Assembly: GCF_009650765.1 (NCBI RefSeq) | Contig: NZ_CP045740.1 | Coordinates: 3,758,001 to 3,822,000 of the forward strand | DNA: 64,000 bases | From: Streptomyces sp. SUK 48 | GTDB taxonomy: Bacteria > Actinomycetota > Actinomycetes > Streptomycetales > Streptomycetaceae | Direction of reading: 5' to 3' | In this document: positions 8,008-31,001 of the stretch, one piece after another | Layout of the letters: the number at the start of each line of letters is the position of its first letter | Position numbering within the stretch: the first letter of the stretch is position 1 | The notes under the pieces: generated by a model | Database searches by the model: none | Told to the model about the DNA's origin: nothing | Seen by the model: only the letters and a program-made list of their open reading frames with translations | Translations under genes and position numbers: made by a program

Positions 8008-8840
8008 CGGCGCGGGAGGCGGACCGCGGCGGCCAGGTGCTTGCGGGCGAAGGCGAGGGCCTCGGCGAGGTCGGCCTCGCGCTCGGCGCCGGACATCGCC
8101 CGCCGGGTGTTGACCTCGACGACGACATGGCCGCCGAAACCGGAGACGGTCAGGTGCTCCAGCAGCTCGGCGCAGGGCTGGTCGCCGCGCCCCGGCACCA
8201 GGTGCTCGTCCTTGGCCGAGCCGCGCCCGTCGGCGAGGTGGACGTGGCCGAGCCGGTCGCCCATGCGGCCGATCATGTCCAGGGCGTCGGTGCGGGCCGT
8301 CGACGTATGGCTGAGGTCGATCGTGAAGTGCCGGTAGTCGTCCTGGGTGACGTCCCAGGCGGGGGCGTAGGCGAGCATTTCGCGGTCGCGGTAGCGCCAG
8401 GGGTACATGTTCTCGACCGCGAACCGTACGTCCGTCTCGTCCGCCATCCGCCACACGCCCGCGACGAAGTCCCGGGCGTACTGCCGCTGCCACCGGAACG
8501 GCGGGTGCACGACGACGGTGGAGGCGCCCAGCTTCTCGGCGGCGGCCTGGGCGCGGCGCAGCTTGGTCCACGGGTCGGTGGACCAGACGCGCTGCGTGAT
8601 CAGCAGGCACGGGGCGTGCACGGCGAGGATCGGGATGCCGTGGTGGTCCGAGAGGCGGCGCAGCGCGTCGATGTCCTGGCTGACGGGGTCGGTCCAGACC
8701 ATGACCTCGACGCCGTCGTAGCCGAGGCGCGCGGCGATCTCGAAGGCCGTCGCCGTGGACTCCGGGTAGACGGAGGCTGTCGACAGCGCTACGGGGACGG
8801 TCGTTGGTTCAGCCACGTCCGTCACCTTAAGGGGTTCCAC
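8004..8840 (-). CDS. Sugar phosphate isomerase/epimerase-like TIM-barrel protein
   Basis: 278 residues by the longest reading (GTG). In-frame GTGs at 8825 and 8816 are also possible starts, and the 8816 start fits the beginning of sequence conservation better. It has the xylose-isomerase-like TIM barrel layout: '[14 protein letters not shown]', '[16 protein letters not shown]', '[11 protein letters not shown]', '[10 protein letters not shown]', '[12 protein letters not shown]', 'LGHVHLADG' and 'HVVVEVNTR', with the metal-ligand Glu, Asp and His residues at strand ends. The family includes endonuclease IV-like and sugar isomerase enzymes. The substrate is not evident. It is coupled to the downstream TetR gene. 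Confidence 0.82.
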
Positions 8841-8964
8841 GGTGGGCGAGTCGGGTGCCTGTTCGCCGTTGTGAGGTTTGCCATTTGAGCGGGTGCGGGT
8901 GCGTCGTGGCGGCTCGCGCCCGCCCCGCCCGCCCTCGCGCCCGCCCCGCGCGCCGTCCGGTCGC

Positions 8965-9897
8965 TCAGGCGGAACCCATGTGGTCGAGGCGCCGCAGGAT
9001 CACGCCCTCCCGCAGTGCCCAGGGGCATATCTCCAGGCTCTCCACGCCGAAGAGGTCCATCGCGCCCTCCGCCACCAGGGCGCCCGCGAGCAGCTGGCCC
9101 GCCCGGCCGTCGGAGACGCCCGGCAGCTCGGCGCGCTGCTCGATGGTCATACCGGACAGGCGGGGGACCCATGCCTCCAGGGATTCGCGTTTGAGCTCGC
9201 GCTGGACGTAGAGGCCGTCGGCGCTGCGGGCCGCGCCGGCGATGCGGGCCAGCTGCTTGAAGGTCTTGGAGGTGGCGACGACATGGTCGGGGGCGCCGAA
9301 GCGGGCGAACTCGCCGACCGTGCGGGCGATCTCCGCGCGGACGTGGCGGCGCAGGGCGCGTACGTCGTCCGGGGCGGGCGGGTCGCCGGGGAGCCGGCCG
9401 GCGGTGAGGCGGCCCGCACCGAGCGGCAGGGAGGCGGCGGCGTCCGGTTGCTCGTCGATGCCGAACGCGATCTCCAGGGAGCCGCCGCCGATGTCCAGGA
9501 CCAGCAGCTTCCCGGCGGACCAGCCGAACCAGCGGCGTACGGCGAGGAAGGTGAGGCGGGCCTCCTCGGCGCCGGACAGGACCTGGAGCCGTACGCCGGT
9601 CTCGTCGGCGACGCGGGCGAGGACCTCGTCGGCGTTGGTCGCCTCGCGGACGGCGGAGGTGGCGAAGGGGAGCAGGTCCTCGACGCCCTTGTCCTCGGCG
9701 GCCTGGAGCGCGTCCCGTACGACGTCGACGAGCTTCTCGATGCCGGCGTCGCCGATGGCACCGCTGGCGTCGAGGAGTTGGGCGAGCCGAAGGTCGGCCT
9801 TGTGCGAATGCGCGGGCAGCGGGCGGGCGCCGGGGTGGGCGTCCACCACCAGCAGATGCACCGTGTTCGAACCCACGTCCAGGACACCGAGTCTCAT
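8965..9897 (-). CDS. Ppx/GppA-family exopolyphosphatase-like phosphatase
   Basis: 310 residues from ATG 9897 ([16 protein letters not shown]). A longer in-frame reading would run into the divergent gene starting at 9969, so it was rejected. It has the ASKHA fold motifs of the family: '[12 protein letters not shown]' (phosphate 1), '[11 protein letters not shown]' and '[15 protein letters not shown]' (phosphate 2). It probably hydrolyses polyphosphate or the gamma phosphate of pppGpp. At ~310 residues it is the short single-module form common in actinobacteria (Rv0496/Rv1026 type) and lacks the HD-like C-terminal domain of E. coli Ppx. Which substrate is preferred cannot be told here. Confidence 0.9.
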
Positions 9898-9968
9898 ATA
9901 CGGAACGCTACTGCCAGAACGCGGCTCCACGGTCCCCGGACCGGGGGCGGGGCACTTACCCTGGACGG

Positions 9969-10808
9969 GTGCCAAAGACGAAAAAGGCGAAGTCCGCGAA
10001 AGCCGATAAGACGGACAAGGCTCGCAAGGTCGCCAAAGCTGCCAAGGGGTCGAAGGTGAGCGACGAGAAGGGGCTCGACTTCGCGCGCGCGTGGGTGGAG
10101 TTTCCGGACCCGGCGGACGACGAGCAGGTCTTCCGCTGTGATCTGACGTGGCTGACCTCGCGCTGGAACTGCATCTTCGGCAGCGGCTGCCAGGGCATCA
10201 AGGCGGGGCGCGCGGACGACGGGTGCTGCACGCTGGGGGCGCACTTCTCCGACGAGGACGACGAGAAGCGGGTCGCCGGGCACGTGGCGCGGCTCACGCC
10301 GGACATCTGGCAGCACCACGCCGAGGGCACGAAGGACGGCTGGATCTCGGAGGACGAGGAGGGGTCCCGGCAGACGCGGCCCTTCGAGGGGTCCTGCATC
10401 TTCCAGAACCGGCCCGGGTTCGCGGGCGGCGCGGGGTGCTCGCTGCACATCCTCGCGCTCAAGGAGGGCCGGGAGCCGCTGGAGACGAAGCCGGACGTGT
10501 GCTGGCAGCTGCCGGTGCGGCGGACGTACGAGTGGATCGACCGGCCCGACGACACGCGGGTGCTCCAGATCTCCATCGGCGAGTACGACCGCAGGGGCTG
10601 GGGTCCTGGCGGGCACGATCTGCACTGGTGGTGCACGTCGGCCACGTCGGCGCACGGTGCGGGGGACCCGGTGTACGTGTCCTACCGCGCGGAGCTGACG
10701 GAGCTGATGGGCAAGGAGGGCTACGACCGGCTGACCGAGCTCTGCGAGCAGCGCCTGTCCGCACAGCTCCCGATGCTGGCCCCCCACCCGGCGGACCCGG
10801 CGTCCTGA
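9969..10808 (+). CDS. Cysteine-rich protein of probable metal-binding (DUF3109/YkgJ-like) type
   Basis: 279 residues from a GTG. The first ~30 residues are a Lys/Ala-rich tail ([21 protein letters not shown]), followed by a compact domain with ten cysteines at about 57, 68, 74, 86, 87, 143, 157, 178, 222 and 259. The arrangement C-x5-C-x11-CC, then a distant C-x13-C-S-L-H, resembles the CxxxxxCC iron/zinc-binding proteins of the YkgJ/DUF3109 group. Several conserved-looking Trp residues (DIWQHH, DLHWWC) are present. It may bind an Fe-S cluster or zinc. It is divergent from the Ppx-like gene (71 bp apart). The function is unknown. Confidence 0.8.
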
Positions 10809-23671: not shown

Positions 23672-24220
23672 TCAGACGCGGACGCCCTTGCCCTTCAGGA
23701 ACGGCACCGGGTTGAGGGCGGAGCCGTAGTTCGGGGTCGTACGGATCTCGAAGTGCAGGTGGGGACCCGTGGAGTTGCCGGTGGAGCCGGACAGGGCGAT
23801 GTGCTGGCCGGTCTTCACCTTCTGGCCGATCTTGACGTCGACGCGGGAGAGGTGCGCGTACTGGGAGTAGACGCCGTTCTCGTGCTTGATCACGATGGCG
23901 TTGCCGTACGCGGGACCGTCACCGGCGCCGTTGGGGCCGGCCTTGACGACGGTGCCGCCGTGCACGGAGAAGACCTCGGTACCGGTGGACACGGCGAAGT
24001 CCTGGCCGCTGTGCTTGGCGACCCAGTGGGCGCCGGACTGGTTGAAGCCCGCGGAGAGCGCGTACTTCTTCACCGGGTCGACCCAGGAGGCCGCCGACGG
24101 AGCGGCGCTCGCGACTCCGGCGCCCAGCACGACCGGGACAGCGACACCGGCGGCCAGGAAGGCGGCGCGGGTACGGAGCGAGGACGTACGGGTGGCACGG
24201 GACGTGAAGCGCTTGAACAT
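23672..24220 (-). CDS. Secreted M23 (LytM-type) metallopeptidase
   Basis: 182 residues. A twin-Arg-free Sec signal peptide (basic MFKRFTSRATRTSSLRTR, hydrophobic core, cleavage near GVASAAP, about 39-41) precedes a single M23 domain. Zinc ligands are visible: H-x3-D in 'HSGQDFAV' and H-x-H in 'GPHLHFEI', with 'QYAHLS' supplying the other active-site His. It cuts peptide cross-links in peptidoglycan outside the cell. There are no extra wall-binding domains. It shares a 457-bp divergent region with the HAD phosphatase gene; that region contains a perfect dyad and an 11-bp direct repeat. Wall hydrolases of this kind are often under c-di-AMP or SigE control, but no such signal was recognised. Confidence 0.92.
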   Translation of the reverse strand: MFKRFTSRATRTSSLRTRAAFLAAGVAVPVVLGAGVASAAPSAASWVDPVKKYALSAGFNQSGAHWVAKHSGQDFAVSTGTEVFSVHGGTVVKAGPNGAGDGPAYGNAIVIKHENGVYSQYAHLSRVDVKIGQKVKTGQHIALSGSTGNSTGPHLHFEIRTTPNYGSALNPVPFLKGKGVRV

Positions 24221-24677: not shown

Positions 24678-25331
24678 ATGAGCAGCCCCCTGGCGCGCCG
24701 CCTCACCGTGACCGCCGTCTCCGTGGCCGCCCTGGCCGCCGTGGCCGCCCCGGCCCGGGCGGCGGACGCCACCGCGGCCCCGGCCACCGCCGCCACGGCC
24801 CCGGCCACCGCCGCCGCGGCGAGCGCCACGACCGGCAAGGTCGACTTCGCCACCTGGCAGAACGACTGCCGGACGGTCATGGCCCCGGCCCTGCCGTACC
24901 TGGAGCAGCGCATCGCCGCCGCGAAGCCGGGCGAGAAGCAGGCCATCGTCTTCGACATCGACAACACCACCCTGGACACCGACCTGGGCCTCACCGTCCC
25001 CCAGCAGGCCAACCAGCCGGTGTTCGACGTCGCCCGGTACGCCCAGGACCACGGCGTCGCGCTCTTCTTCGTGACCGCCCGCCCGGGCATCATCGCGGCG
25101 CCCACCAGGTGGAACCTGGAGTACGACGGCTACCAGGTCTCCGGCCTCTACGTGCGCGGCCTGTTCGACCTCTTCAAGAACGTCGCCGACTACAAGACGG
25201 CCCAGCGCGTCGACATCGAGAACAAGGGCTACGACATCATCGCCAACATCGGCAACAGCGCCACCGACCTGTCCGGCGGCCACGCCGACCGCACCTTCAA
25301 GTTGCCGGACTACAACGGCCAGCTCTCGTAG
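24678..25331 (+). CDS. Secreted HAD-superfamily acid phosphatase
   Basis: 217 residues with a Sec signal peptide (about 1-28, ending APARAAD), then an Ala/Thr linker. HAD motifs are present: motif I 'VFDIDNTTLDT' (DxD), motif II Thr in 'FFVTARPG', motif III Lys in 'DYKTAQR' and motif IV 'NIGNSATDLSGGHAD'. It fits class B/'HAD family acid phosphatase' proteins that release phosphate from organic phosphates outside the cell. The ATG has a GAGAGGAA ribosome-binding site 8-10 nt upstream. Its own promoter is in the shared 457-bp region. It ends 56 bp before the NACHT gene on the same strand. Confidence 0.9.
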   Translation: MSSPLARRLTVTAVSVAALAAVAAPARAADATAAPATAATAPATAAAASATTGKVDFATWQNDCRTVMAPALPYLEQRIAAAKPGEKQAIVFDIDNTTLDTDLGLTVPQQANQPVFDVARYAQDHGVALFFVTARPGIIAAPTRWNLEYDGYQVSGLYVRGLFDLFKNVADYKTAQRVDIENKGYDIIANIGNSATDLSGGHADRTFKLPDYNGQLS

Positions 25332-25387
25332 GGCAGTTAGGCTCCGTCCGTAGTCTTCTGACGGTCGTACGACCACGGGGGTGGCGG

Positions 25388-28300
25388 ATGGAGCCGACGG
25401 TGCTCGGCGGCAAACTCGCGTCCGCCGCGATCGGCCCGCTGGTGCGGAGACTGCTCGCGGCGGACGGCCCCGGAGCGGGCCTGGTCGACGAGCCGGTACG
25501 GCTGTCCGCGCTGGTCTCCTTCCGGGGCGAGAAGCGGACGCTGGGCGAGAAGGACGTCCTCAAGCTCGCCGGGCAGATCGTCGCCAGAGCGGTGGAATCA
25601 CCGGGGGCCGCGCCGTTCCCCGCCGACGAGCAGTTCGCCGTCGTCGGCGCGCTCGCCCGCAGGCTGCTGGCCCTGGGCGACCTGGAGATGGACGACGTCC
25701 AGGCCGTACGGCTCGGCCACCGGGAACTGGCCCGCGAACTGCTCCGCTCCGCGGCCGCCCCCGACGGCCTCTCCGTGGACTCCTGCCACTTCCTGGACTC
25801 GGCGACGCAGTGGTGCTGCCTTCAGATCCTGGAGTTCTTCACCCGGCGCTCGTCCTTTGTCACCCGCACGCTCGTGGAGCAGAGCCGGGCACAGGCCGAA
25901 CTGATCGCCAGGGTGGACGAGTTGATCGTCCGCGTGCCGCGCCCCGACGCGCGCGACACCGCCTTCGAACGCCGCTATCTGCCGTATGTCGCCGAGCACC
26001 ACAACCACATCACCATCTACGGCATCGACCTGCGTGACTCTCCCGACCGCTGGCCCCTCGAAGTCGCCTATCTGAGCCTGGAGGCGACGGCGGTCGAGGA
26101 CGCGCCGCCCGACCCGGTCCCCGGCGAGCACCCGCTGACCGCCACCGGCCGGCTGCGGGCCGAGGAGGCGCTGCTGGCCGACTCCCGGGTGCTGCTGCGC
26201 GGCGACGCCGGCTCCGGCAAGACCACGCTGGTGCAGTGGCTCGCGGTCACGGCGGCCCGCGAGGGCGGCCGCGTCCCCTACGTCCTGCCGCTGCGCACCC
26301 TGATCCGGGCGGGGACGCTGCCCGCCCCGGACGGTTTCCTGAAGGCCGTGAGCTGCCCGCTGCCCCCGCCGCAGGGCTGGGCCGAGCGGGTCCTCGCGGC
26401 GGGCCGGGGCCTGATCCTGGTGGACGGCCTGGACGAGATCCCGGCCGCCGACCGCCATCGCACCCGCGACTGGCTGCGCGCGCTCCTTGCGGCCTGCCCC
26501 GGCAACCACTGGCTGCTGACCTCCCGCCCGACCGCCGTGCGCCCCGACTGGCTGGCCCAGGAGGGCTTCCGGGAGCTGACCCTCGCCCCGATGCGGCGCT
26601 CGGAGGTGGCGACCTTCGTCCACCGCTGGCACGAGGCGGCCCGGGCGCCCGAGTTCGAGGCCCCGCTGCTGGACTCGCTGCGCACGAAACGCGATCTGGC
26701 CCGGCTCACCACCAACCCCCTGATGTGCGGCCTGATCTGCGCCCTGCACCGCGAACGCCGGGGCTATCTCCCCACCGGCCGCAAGGAGTTGTACGACGCC
26801 GCCCTCACGATGCTGCTCGCGCGCCGGGACCGGGAGCGGGGCATGAGCGTCGACCTGGGCGAGGAGGTCCAGCTGGAGCTGCTCCAGCGGCTCGCGTACG
26901 CGCTGGTGCTCAGCGGCCGTACGGAGATGGGCACCGACCGGGCCGAGGCGATCGTGGGGCGGTGTCTGCCGGCGGTGGCCTCGGCGGGGAGCGACGCGTC
27001 CGCCGTACTGCGCGGGCTGCTGCTGCGGAGCGGCCTGCTGCGCCAGCCCGCCGAGGGTGTCGTGGACTTCATCCACCGGACGTTCCAGGACTATCTGGGG
27101 GCCCGGTACGCGGTGGAGGAGGGGCATCTGGAGGTCCTGCTGAAGAACGCCGACGACACGCAGTGGGAGGACGTCGTCCGGATGGCCGTGGCCCATGCCC
27201 GGTCCGGTGAACGGGCCTGGCTGCTGGCGCGGTTGCTGGAGCGGAGGACTCCCCGGCTGACCTTGCTGGCGCTGGCCTGTCTGGAGCATGTGGCGGCCTT
27301 GAAGGCAGACGTGCGCAGCGAGGTGGAGGACCGCGCGGGGGCGCTGATCCCCCCGCAGACGACGAAGGGGGCGAAGGCGCTGGCCGAGGCCGGCCCGCTC
27401 GTCCTGGAGCTGCTGCCCGGCCCGGACGGGCTGACCGACGAAGAGGCCCGGGCCGTGACGGTCACCGCGTCCCTCCTCGGTGAACTGGAGCCCGAAGGCG
27501 CGCTCGGGGTGCTGCGGCGATTCCGGGAGCATCCCGATCTGGATGTACGCCAGCAACTGGCCCGTACCTGGGGCCGGTTCAACACCGAGGAGTACGCGAC
27601 CGAGGTGCTGGATCAGCTGGACCGCCGTACGCTCCGCCTGACCTGCACCTCCGCCGAACAGTGCGCGGCACTGGCCCGGATGCGCCCGTGGCCGTGGCTG
27701 CGGTTGCAGGGCGCGCGGCGGGTCGACGAGTTCCTGGAAGCGGGAATGCCGGAAACGACGGTGTCGCTCATCCTGTCGGACATCTCCGACCTCACCGATC
27801 TGGGCGTGCTTCTGCCCTTCGGCGGGCTGCGCGCACTGTGGCTGGACGACTGCCCGGCCGCACACGGTCTGGAGCGGCTTTCCGTTCTGCCGCTCACGGT
27901 GCTCAGCTGCTCCCCCCTCGCCGATATCTCGGGACTGAGGTCTCTGCGGTCCCTCACCACGGTCGCCGTCAGCCAGCGGCTGCCGGGCTGGAACCTCACC
28001 GAAGCGCTGCCGGTCGACGCGGCACTGGAATACCTGGCCCTCGGCAGATCCAGTACCGACAGCACGGGATTACGCGGCCTGAGCCACTGGAGTGGGCTGC
28101 GCACATTGAGTCTCGGGCCGCTGACGACGGAACCGACGGTGGGCGACTGGCACGAAGTCGCGGAACTCCCCGCCCTGACGGACCTCCATCTGAACGGAAG
28201 GATCGTCCGGGAATACTCTCGCTCGCTCACCCGTATGCCGGAACTTCCCGGTATCGAGGCACTGGAGGTGCGGATGCTGGCCGGCGACGAGGATTTCTCC

Positions 28301-28426
28301 CCCCTGGTGTCCCGGCTGACGGGACTGCGTTCGGTGACCCTGTCGAGTCAGCCCGGGCATTTCCTCTCGGCCGCCCGCTGCCGGGAACTCTTCCCGCACG
28401 CCCACGTCACCGTGGAAGAAAGCTGA
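25388..28426 (+). CDS. NACHT-LRR STAND NTPase (NLR-like protein)
   Basis: 1012 residues from ATG 25388, which follows a GGGGGTGG ribosome-binding tract. Architecture: a helical N-terminal domain (about 1-230) resembling the NACHT N-terminal helical (NNH) domains of actinobacterial proteins; a NACHT NTPase with Walker A 'GDAGSGKTT' (272-280), Walker B 'GLILVDGLDEIP' (341-352) and the sensor-like 'HWLLTSRP'; a post-NACHT helical region with 'VDFIHRTFQDYLGARYA'; a helical spacer; and ~230 C-terminal residues with irregular leucine-rich repeats ('LRALWLDDC', 'LEYLALGRS', 'LRTLSLGP', 'LTDLHLNG', 'LRSVTLSS'). Bacterial NACHT proteins include anti-phage sensors related to animal NLRs. No separate nuclease or TIR effector is visible. 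Base composition matches its neighbours. Confidence 0.9.
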   Translation: MEPTVLGGKLASAAIGPLVRRLLAADGPGAGLVDEPVRLSALVSFRGEKRTLGEKDVLKLAGQIVARAVESPGAAPFPADEQFAVVGALARRLLALGDLEMDDVQAVRLGHRELARELLRSAAAPDGLSVDSCHFLDSATQWCCLQILEFFTRRSSFVTRTLVEQSRAQAELIARVDELIVRVPRPDARDTAFERRYLPYVAEHHNHITIYGIDLRDSPDRWPLEVAYLSLEATAVEDAPPDPVPGEHPLTATGRLRAEEALLADSRVLLRGDAGSGKTTLVQWLAVTAAREGGRVPYVLPLRTLIRAGTLPAPDGFLKAVSCPLPPPQGWAERVLAAGRGLILVDGLDEIPAADRHRTRDWLRALLAACPGNHWLLTSRPTAVRPDWLAQEGFRELTLAPMRRSEVATFVHRWHEAARAPEFEAPLLDSLRTKRDLARLTTNPLMCGLICALHRERRGYLPTGRKELYDAALTMLLARRDRERGMSVDLGEEVQLELLQRLAYALVLSGRTEMGTDRAEAIVGRCLPAVASAGSDASAVLRGLLLRSGLLRQPAEGVVDFIHRTFQDYLGARYAVEEGHLEVLLKNADDTQWEDVVRMAVAHARSGERAWLLARLLERRTPRLTLLALACLEHVAALKADVRSEVEDRAGALIPPQTTKGAKALAEAGPLVLELLPGPDGLTDEEARAVTVTASLLGELEPEGALGVLRRFREHPDLDVRQQLARTWGRFNTEEYATEVLDQLDRRTLRLTCTSAEQCAALARMRPWPWLRLQGARRVDEFLEAGMPETTVSLILSDISDLTDLGVLLPFGGLRALWLDDCPAAHGLERLSVLPLTVLSCSPLADISGLRSLRSLTTVAVSQRLPGWNLTEALPVDAALEYLALGRSSTDSTGLRGLSHWSGLRTLSLGPLTTEPTVGDWHEVAELPALTDLHLNGRIVREYSRSLTRMPELPGIEALEVRMLAGDEDFSPLVSRLTGLRSVTLSSQPGHFLSAARCRELFPHAHVTVEES

Positions 28427-28460
28427 AGGGGGCCGGTGCTCGAAAGCACCGGCCCCCTTC
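28425..28460. terminator. Strong bidirectional terminator between NACHT gene and clpC
   Basis: A 16-bp perfect stem starts at the NACHT stop codon (28425-28440 with 28445-28460) and has a CGAA tetraloop. It serves both convergent genes. It is one of the most stable hairpins in the window. Confidence 0.88.

Positions 28461-28478: not shown

Positions 28479-31001
<2,523 letters not shown>

Follow-up and report, generated by a model that had tools for sequence, protein, structure and literature searches.

Why does a streptomycete chromosome carry, beside clpC, a gene laid out like an animal immune receptor? The question is raised by a 64,000-nucleotide stretch of Streptomyces sp. SUK 48 (NZ_CP045740.1, positions 3,758,001 to 3,822,000 of the forward strand; hereafter the window), which encodes a protein with a NACHT nucleoside triphosphatase (NTPase) domain and a predicted C-terminal solenoid of leucine-rich repeats (LRRs). 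Judging from its domains and its relatives, the gene probably encodes a bacterial NLR (nucleotide-binding, leucine-rich repeat receptor), that is, a STAND immune receptor encoded by one gene, whose most likely targets are phages or other DNA elements that invade the cell. The clpC slot that it occupies is a polymorphic single-locus site and not a fixed core gene. The gene and its parts, in coordinates of the window, are as follows:

25388..28426, forward strand: NNH1-NACHT-LRR gene, 1012 amino acids (open reading frame (ORF), Pfam, AlphaFold2 model)
25409..25927, forward strand: helical N-terminal NNH1 domain, residues 8-180 (Pfam, E 2.8e-53)
26186..26638, forward strand: NACHT NTPase core, residues 267-417 (Pfam, E 1.3e-28)
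26201..26227, forward strand: Walker A motif GDAGSGKTT, residues 272-280, with K278 invariant in a 65-row alignment
26411..26437, forward strand: Walker B motif LILVDGLDE, residues 342-350, with D346, G347, D349 and E350 invariant in the same alignment
27062..27103, forward strand: VDFIHRTFQDYLGA motif, residues 559-572, with H563 invariant in the same alignment
27128..27622, forward strand: helical HD2/HEAT-like region, residues 581-745 (weak HEAT_2 match below the cut-off; DSSP of the model)
27623..28423, forward strand: LRR solenoid, residues 746-1012, the variable and putative sensor part (model, profile, diversity data)

The gene runs from the ATG at 25388 to the stop at 28426, in a frame that itself extends further upstream of this ATG, and the 120 homologues listed are 983 to 1032 amino acids long. 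The NNH1 domain (PF22733) scores 181 bits against a curated cut-off of 27 and is present in all 46 NNH1-type proteins aligned, namely the window protein and 45 homologues from the same site in other genomes. Besides the residues named above, G272, A274, G275 and G277 of Walker A are invariant in the 65-row alignment, as are F561, R564, T565, F566, Q567 and D568 of the VDFIHRTFQDYLGA motif, in which H563 would correspond by position to the winged-helix histidine of animal NLRs. No Pfam LRR was called on the window protein itself; LRR_4 matched 11 of the 46 NNH1-type proteins, and a profile of the 65-row alignment matched solved LRRs (C. tepidum Roco, E 4.7e-19) as well as the NACHT region of NOD2 (E 4.5e-8). 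The AlphaFold2 model places 12 strands across residues 750-1010, with a confidence score (pLDDT) of at least 90 over most of this stretch. When the full model was searched with Foldseek, the top matches were the animal NLRs NLRC4, NOD2 and NLRP3, and residues 191-675 of the predicted structure superpose on the NACHT domain of NLRP3 with a root-mean-square deviation of 3.4 A over 395 residues. The domain order is NNH1, NACHT, a winged-helix/HD2-like region and LRR, and three features of an NLR are present: a NACHT domain with Walker A and B motifs, a C-terminal LRR and, between them, a predicted winged-helix/HD2 region. A sequence-only reading of this DNA had proposed a NACHT-LRR protein in animal-NLR-like order, and Pfam, the model, the profile and Foldseek all bear this out. 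It had also described a helical N-terminus with no recognisable nuclease, TIR or protease effector. Pfam and defence-model searches likewise found no nuclease, TIR or protease domain there; only the anonymity of this part is lost, since Pfam assigns it to NNH1. Residues 1-265 were modelled too, and the best Foldseek match of this N-terminal model (E 0.22) is not a confident one. No DNA-binding domain was found in the protein by Pfam, and the source genome yielded no further NNH1 protein.

The surroundings of the gene are defined by the following features:

28479..31001, reverse strand: clpC, a Clp_N/AAA_2 ATPase with a UVR motif, fixed right border (Pfam, orthologue search)
24678..25331, forward strand: HAD IIIB acid phosphatase (Pfam)
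23672..24220, reverse strand: M23 peptidase, left border of the variable interval (Pfam)
28426..28459, no strand: GC-rich hairpin, located between the NACHT stop codon and that of clpC (by reading)

Pfam names the neighbours as a histidine kinase, MFS, TetR, the M23 peptidase, the acid phosphatase, clpC, lsr2, GNAT and a penicillinase repressor. The placement in core synteny between a secreted phosphatase and clpC, as first read, was thus upheld, and so was the ordinary base composition (GC content 0.720 for the gene and 0.724 for the whole window).

How constant is this arrangement in the genus? Among 296 Streptomyces genomes drawn, 222 had a match and clpC was searched in 150; after 38 of these were dropped for having more than 5 contigs, 112 near-complete genomes (one per species, at most 5 contigs) were kept, and the 12 kb downstream of clpC was examined in each. 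A clpC orthologue was found at 94-99% identity in all 150 (in G133 matched over residues 155-840 only). NACHT matches lie beside clpC in 54 of the 112 genomes and are absent there from 58. All 71 of these matches are oriented toward clpC, and to the left of the interval there are none, although the latter test is empty for L051, L081, L089 and L090, in which the left flank was not found. The left border of the 54 occupied loci is the M23 gene in 49 and another flank gene in 1. Slot NACHT ORFs of at least 600 amino acids number one in 42 loci, two in 9 and three in 2; 42 loci hold the NNH1 type and 15 a non-NNH1 type, with both in 3. In loci that bear the phosphatase, NACHT matches occur on both sides of it (14 and 9). 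Conversely, 13 of 14 inspected sites (of 21) that keep the phosphatase and are free of NACHT matches read simply as phosphatase stop, gap, GC-rich hairpin and clpC, the other (L129) holding a decayed gene. A hairpin similar to that at 28426..28459 recurs at the relatives' slot sites inspected, and its position suggests a terminator shared by the NACHT gene and clpC.

The association with clpC is also seen from the domain. Genome-wide, the 112 genomes gave 108 NNH1 matches (E at most 1e-3, fragments included), 105 of them over the cut-off, and 53 of the 108 fall inside the 12 kb beside clpC, where 0.15 would be expected (12 kb per 8.7 Mb; kinship ignored). Three further matches, in G121, extend the array there; no other match comes closer than 139 kb. 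When 396 genomes were drawn across the phylum, with at most 8 candidates scored per genome, 9 exceeded the NNH1 cut-off, 8 of them in Streptomyces including that of the window. NNH1 matches also recur about 212 kb from the clpC slot (G088, G237) and about 143-157 kb from it (G045, G100, G177), distances hinting at secondary sites. In 23 loci that were compared by name, the gene adjoins clpC in 13 (L008-L020), among them L008 of S. misionensis 66 and L016 of S. parvulus JCM 4068. On the far side of clpC these loci continue with lsr2 and GNAT, apart from L013, whose sequence ends inside clpC. L025 has a relative at some 3 kb from clpC and L030 retains a mere remnant, while the available flanks of the other 8 contain no clpC.

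Adjacency to clpC in many species might mean that the protein guards ClpC or the proteostasis system, and the available text of PMC12169576 describes a precedent of sorts, bNACHT25, which senses phage via the host chaperone DnaJ. However, the NACHT gene and clpC are convergent, the identity of clpC is the same irrespective of what fills the slot, and a conserved flank for recombination would account for the site equally well; we regard this explanation as very improbable.

To follow turnover at the slot, a quick tree was built from the histidine kinase and the C-terminus of clpC, and it is hence linked to the locus; its 100 rows are the window and 99 of the 112 loci, 13 having been excluded because the histidine kinase gene was missing. 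At least 28 changes of occupancy are required on this flank tree; for the NNH1 type taken by itself the figure is 22 and for the protease type described below 14, with L121 scored as protease type. Sister loci illustrate this: L105 has an intact gene and L129 a remnant, and at one and the same position L060 has a gene of the NNH1 type and L118 one of the trypsin type. In S. griseofuscus DSM 40191 (L030) the NACHT gene is reduced to fragments (8700-10300 of that locus), and its flanking genes remain 96-99% identical except for the phosphatase (87%) and a doubtful ORF (88%). The slot genes of both L030 and L129 decayed via several internal deletions, with intact flanks. S. griseofuscus may be a permissive phage host, which a literature search did not confirm.

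When 14 non-NNH1 slot proteins were aligned, NACHT was matched in all 14, Trypsin_2 in 9, Trypsin in 7 and an LRR model in 1. In the protease type, His and Ser are conserved at their columns in all 13 rows that have letters there, and Asp in 12 of these 13. Some occupants thus have a trypsin-like protease at the N-terminus where the others have NNH1. As judged from these predicted domains, one site hosts receptors with different outputs, NNH1 or a trypsin-like protease, and therefore immunity fits better than a housekeeping role.

Consequently, the idea of a resident gene did not survive: there is no NACHT match in those 58 slots, the state has changed many times, and decayed copies exist. The sequence-only reading had left the choice between an immune and a developmental sensor; an immune sensor is retained as the best reading, without the resident status. 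STAND regulators are common in Streptomyces, and a developmental or metabolic regulator of this type, like AfsR or MalT, would suit a gene in core synteny. The protein has no Pfam DNA-binding domain, however, and a developmental role is disfavoured because the slot is often empty and the LRR strongly variable, quite apart from the frequent changes of occupancy and the decayed copies; we therefore hold it to be highly doubtful.

The variability itself is not spread evenly. Over 121 sequences, mean entropy is 0.71 bits in NNH1, 0.50 in NACHT, 0.67 in the HD2-like region and 1.48 in the LRR. Within the LRR, the exposed positions of the xxLxLxx pattern reach 2.24 bits (n=55), other polar positions 1.55 (n=110) and the leucine core 0.60 (n=33), with p 2.7e-6 in a rank test on these classes (kinship ignored). 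Diversity is concentrated in the LRR and peaks at its predicted concave face. This pattern bears on whether the slot genes are a neutral family in decay whose LRR is under relaxed constraint, as the frequent empty slots and the two decayed copies might suggest. Against this, the leucine core is far less variable than the exposed positions, and Walker A is kept in 62, and the DG-x-DE motif in 64, of the 66 NACHT ORFs in the slot that reach 600 amino acids, while an ORF of at least 800 amino acids is found in 52 of the 54 occupied loci (some starts assumed). It thus appears a most unlikely account.

The same contrast is found between close relatives. LRR identity is below 80% in 76 of 98 pairs whose NACHT identity is at least 95% (pairs not independent; identities rounded, a second count giving 77), and the best break in these 76 pairs lies at a median of residue 746 (5th-95th percentile 670-776). 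Where both members share an NCBI species label, 15 of 21 pairs have LRR identity below 80%, the labels being unchecked by average nucleotide identity. For instance, S. tricolor P0015 and P0027 share 99% identity in NNH1, 99% in NACHT and 55% in the LRR; three S. griseorubiginosus pairs, at 82-87% LRR identity, do not drop below 80%. The identity cliff falls inside single proteins, despite the unchecked species labels. In codon comparisons, 22 of 23 pairs yielded numbers, the remaining one failing its motif, and synonymous divergence (dS) was higher in the LRR than in NACHT in 20 of the 22, at least twofold in 7. It rose from 0.07 to 0.59 in the L035/L110 orthologue, from 0.24 to 0.62 between the window and L008, and from 0.23 to 0.58 in L017/L019. 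Because faster amino acid change would by itself leave dS unaffected, divergent LRR alleles were probably imported or have long been retained, and the sequences point to recombined or old LRR alleles.

High LRR variability with presence and absence would also be compatible with a receptor for allorecognition or kin discrimination, in which the variable LRR would sense non-self molecules of neighbouring hyphae, comparable to the NACHT incompatibility proteins of fungi noted in the accessible part of PMC7159879. Approximately half of the species, however, have no NACHT gene in the slot, no partner gene is apparent in the window by reading, and the protease alternative in the slot resembles the phage-defence CARD-NLR systems of PMC13236601, as far as the text available goes. 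We therefore consider this explanation unlikely, albeit less so than the other alternatives.

If the protein is an immune receptor, as we favour, it could work as follows. The concave face of the LRR would bind an invader protein; binding would free the ADP-bound closed form, upon which NACHT would swap its nucleotide and the protein would oligomerise; and the clustered NNH1 domains would kill or arrest the infected hyphal compartment. Occupants of the protease type (trypsin-like protease-NACHT) would give the same response through proteolysis, and alleles with other LRRs would spread through homologous recombination, for which the conserved NACHT half and the flank at clpC would serve. The LRR sensor, the NTPase switch and the oligomer are inferred by analogy with the family; NNH1 as the output or killing domain is our guess.

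Several results weigh against this account. The killing step is a guess because the fold of NNH1 gave no confident match and the helix at its N-terminus is just moderately amphipathic. The gene lies outside a defence island, and PADLOC models yield only weak partial matches. As to the exchange of LRRs, 22 of the 98 pairs retain the LRR; dS is not raised in L010/L011 (0.13 to 0.09) or L089/L090 (0.06 to 0.06), and paralogue 2 of L035/L110 is 99% identical throughout. Only two pairs, L059/L060 and L060/L126, show nonsynonymous divergence (dN) above dS in the LRR; they align poorly, with 31-35% identity, and at such low identity the dS of the LRR varies with the alignment too. Furthermore, nearest-neighbour agreement is low gene-wide (0.29 for NACHT with LRR, 0.33 for the two NACHT halves), so the gene is mosaic throughout and this test cannot split LRR exchange from general recombination. 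Pairs and genomes are non-independent, and the counts are uncorrected for relatedness.

Compared with known systems, the window protein shares with the animal NLRs the order NACHT, winged helix/HD2, LRR and its best structural matches, but its N-terminus is NNH1 instead of CARD or PYD, and sequence identity in the matches listed is 12-20%. Since the closest LRRs by sequence are those of bacterial Roco and internalin proteins, the NLR layout may be convergent. With the bNACHT anti-phage proteins it shares the central NACHT; in the available text of PMC12169576, clade 6 carries a nuclease and NCH1 and clade 14 SNaCT, whereas the window protein has NNH1 and LRRs. That text, citing Kibby et al. 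2023, already presents proteins with NACHT plus LRR as bona fide bacterial NLRs. The EruA model of the antiphage NACHT proteins (NCBIfam) matches residues 341-574 with 55 bits and HyoA residues 390-573 with 21 bits, far below their cut-offs of 1000 and 1200 bits. Nor does a PADLOC model of Avs (AVAST) match the whole protein, Avs2 giving only 11.5 bits over residues 483-578. The CARD-NLR/LypABC systems (PMC13236601, seen in part) also couple an NLR-like ATPase to trypsin-like peptidases, like the protease-type occupants, but they are multi-gene, with TPR-like repeats in LypB, whereas the slot genes encode single proteins, that of the window with LRRs; the neighbours scanned with Pfam include the M23 peptidase and no trypsin-like peptidase. 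NACHT sensors diversified by diversity-generating retroelements, as described in the portion of PMC10907252 available, likewise join a variable sensor part to a NACHT protein in multicellular bacteria, but there CLec domains are diversified by retroelement mutagenesis, and here the variable part is the LRRs. Plant NLRs differ in an unrelated N-terminus and in having NB-ARC, not NACHT (PMC12169576, text available).

The architecture was therefore known; what appears to be new is the slot beside clpC, together with its turnover, the two outputs and the pattern of LRR variation, for which no report was found among the literature matches listed, most subscription papers lying outside the search. 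In an actinobacterial defence survey (PMC10482375), NLR, NACHT, Avs and STAND are absent from the main text as available. A slot whose receptor part often differs so sharply between close relatives suggests a bacterial counterpart of disease-resistance genes. Plant NLR resistance loci show presence and absence, tandem copies and diversity at exposed LRR positions, and the slot resembles them in all three. It is conceivable, and we put it forward tentatively, as slightly less probable than its negation, that the interval from M23 to clpC serves throughout the genus as a dedicated NLR resistance locus, parallel to plant R-gene loci. Receptors whose outputs (NNH1 or protease) can be swapped, and whose LRR specificities can be exchanged, would be turned over at this one fixed core site by homologous recombination under balancing selection. 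If so, bacteria would possess an NLR locus whose population genetics are those of immune receptors in eukaryotes (presence and absence, tandem arrays, a conserved switch and a variable sensor), and this locus would lie outside defence islands and beyond the reach of neighbour-based discovery, which misses such genes, a limit stated in the accessible part of PMC13092281. The natural alleles with the same NNH1-NACHT and different LRRs, such as P0001 and P0002 or P0015 and P0027, would be ready matched pairs for mapping LRR recognition, and the animal-NLR-like fold could provide a simple model for NLR activation.

The phosphatase at 24678-25331 evolves fast, its ratio of nonsynonymous to synonymous change (dN/dS) being 0.56 to L009, 0.57 to L008 and 0.43 to L030, while the other genes measured in these pairs gave 0.06-0.45. 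Upstream of the window gene, at 25338-25356, lie TAGGCT and TAGTCT, and TANNCT-like boxes with CGGGGG stretches occur near the starts of many slot genes; to judge from these motifs, the slot genes may each carry a promoter of their own. An inverted repeat, CACCCCCG/CGGGGGTG, stands directly before the start codon in L033 and L056.
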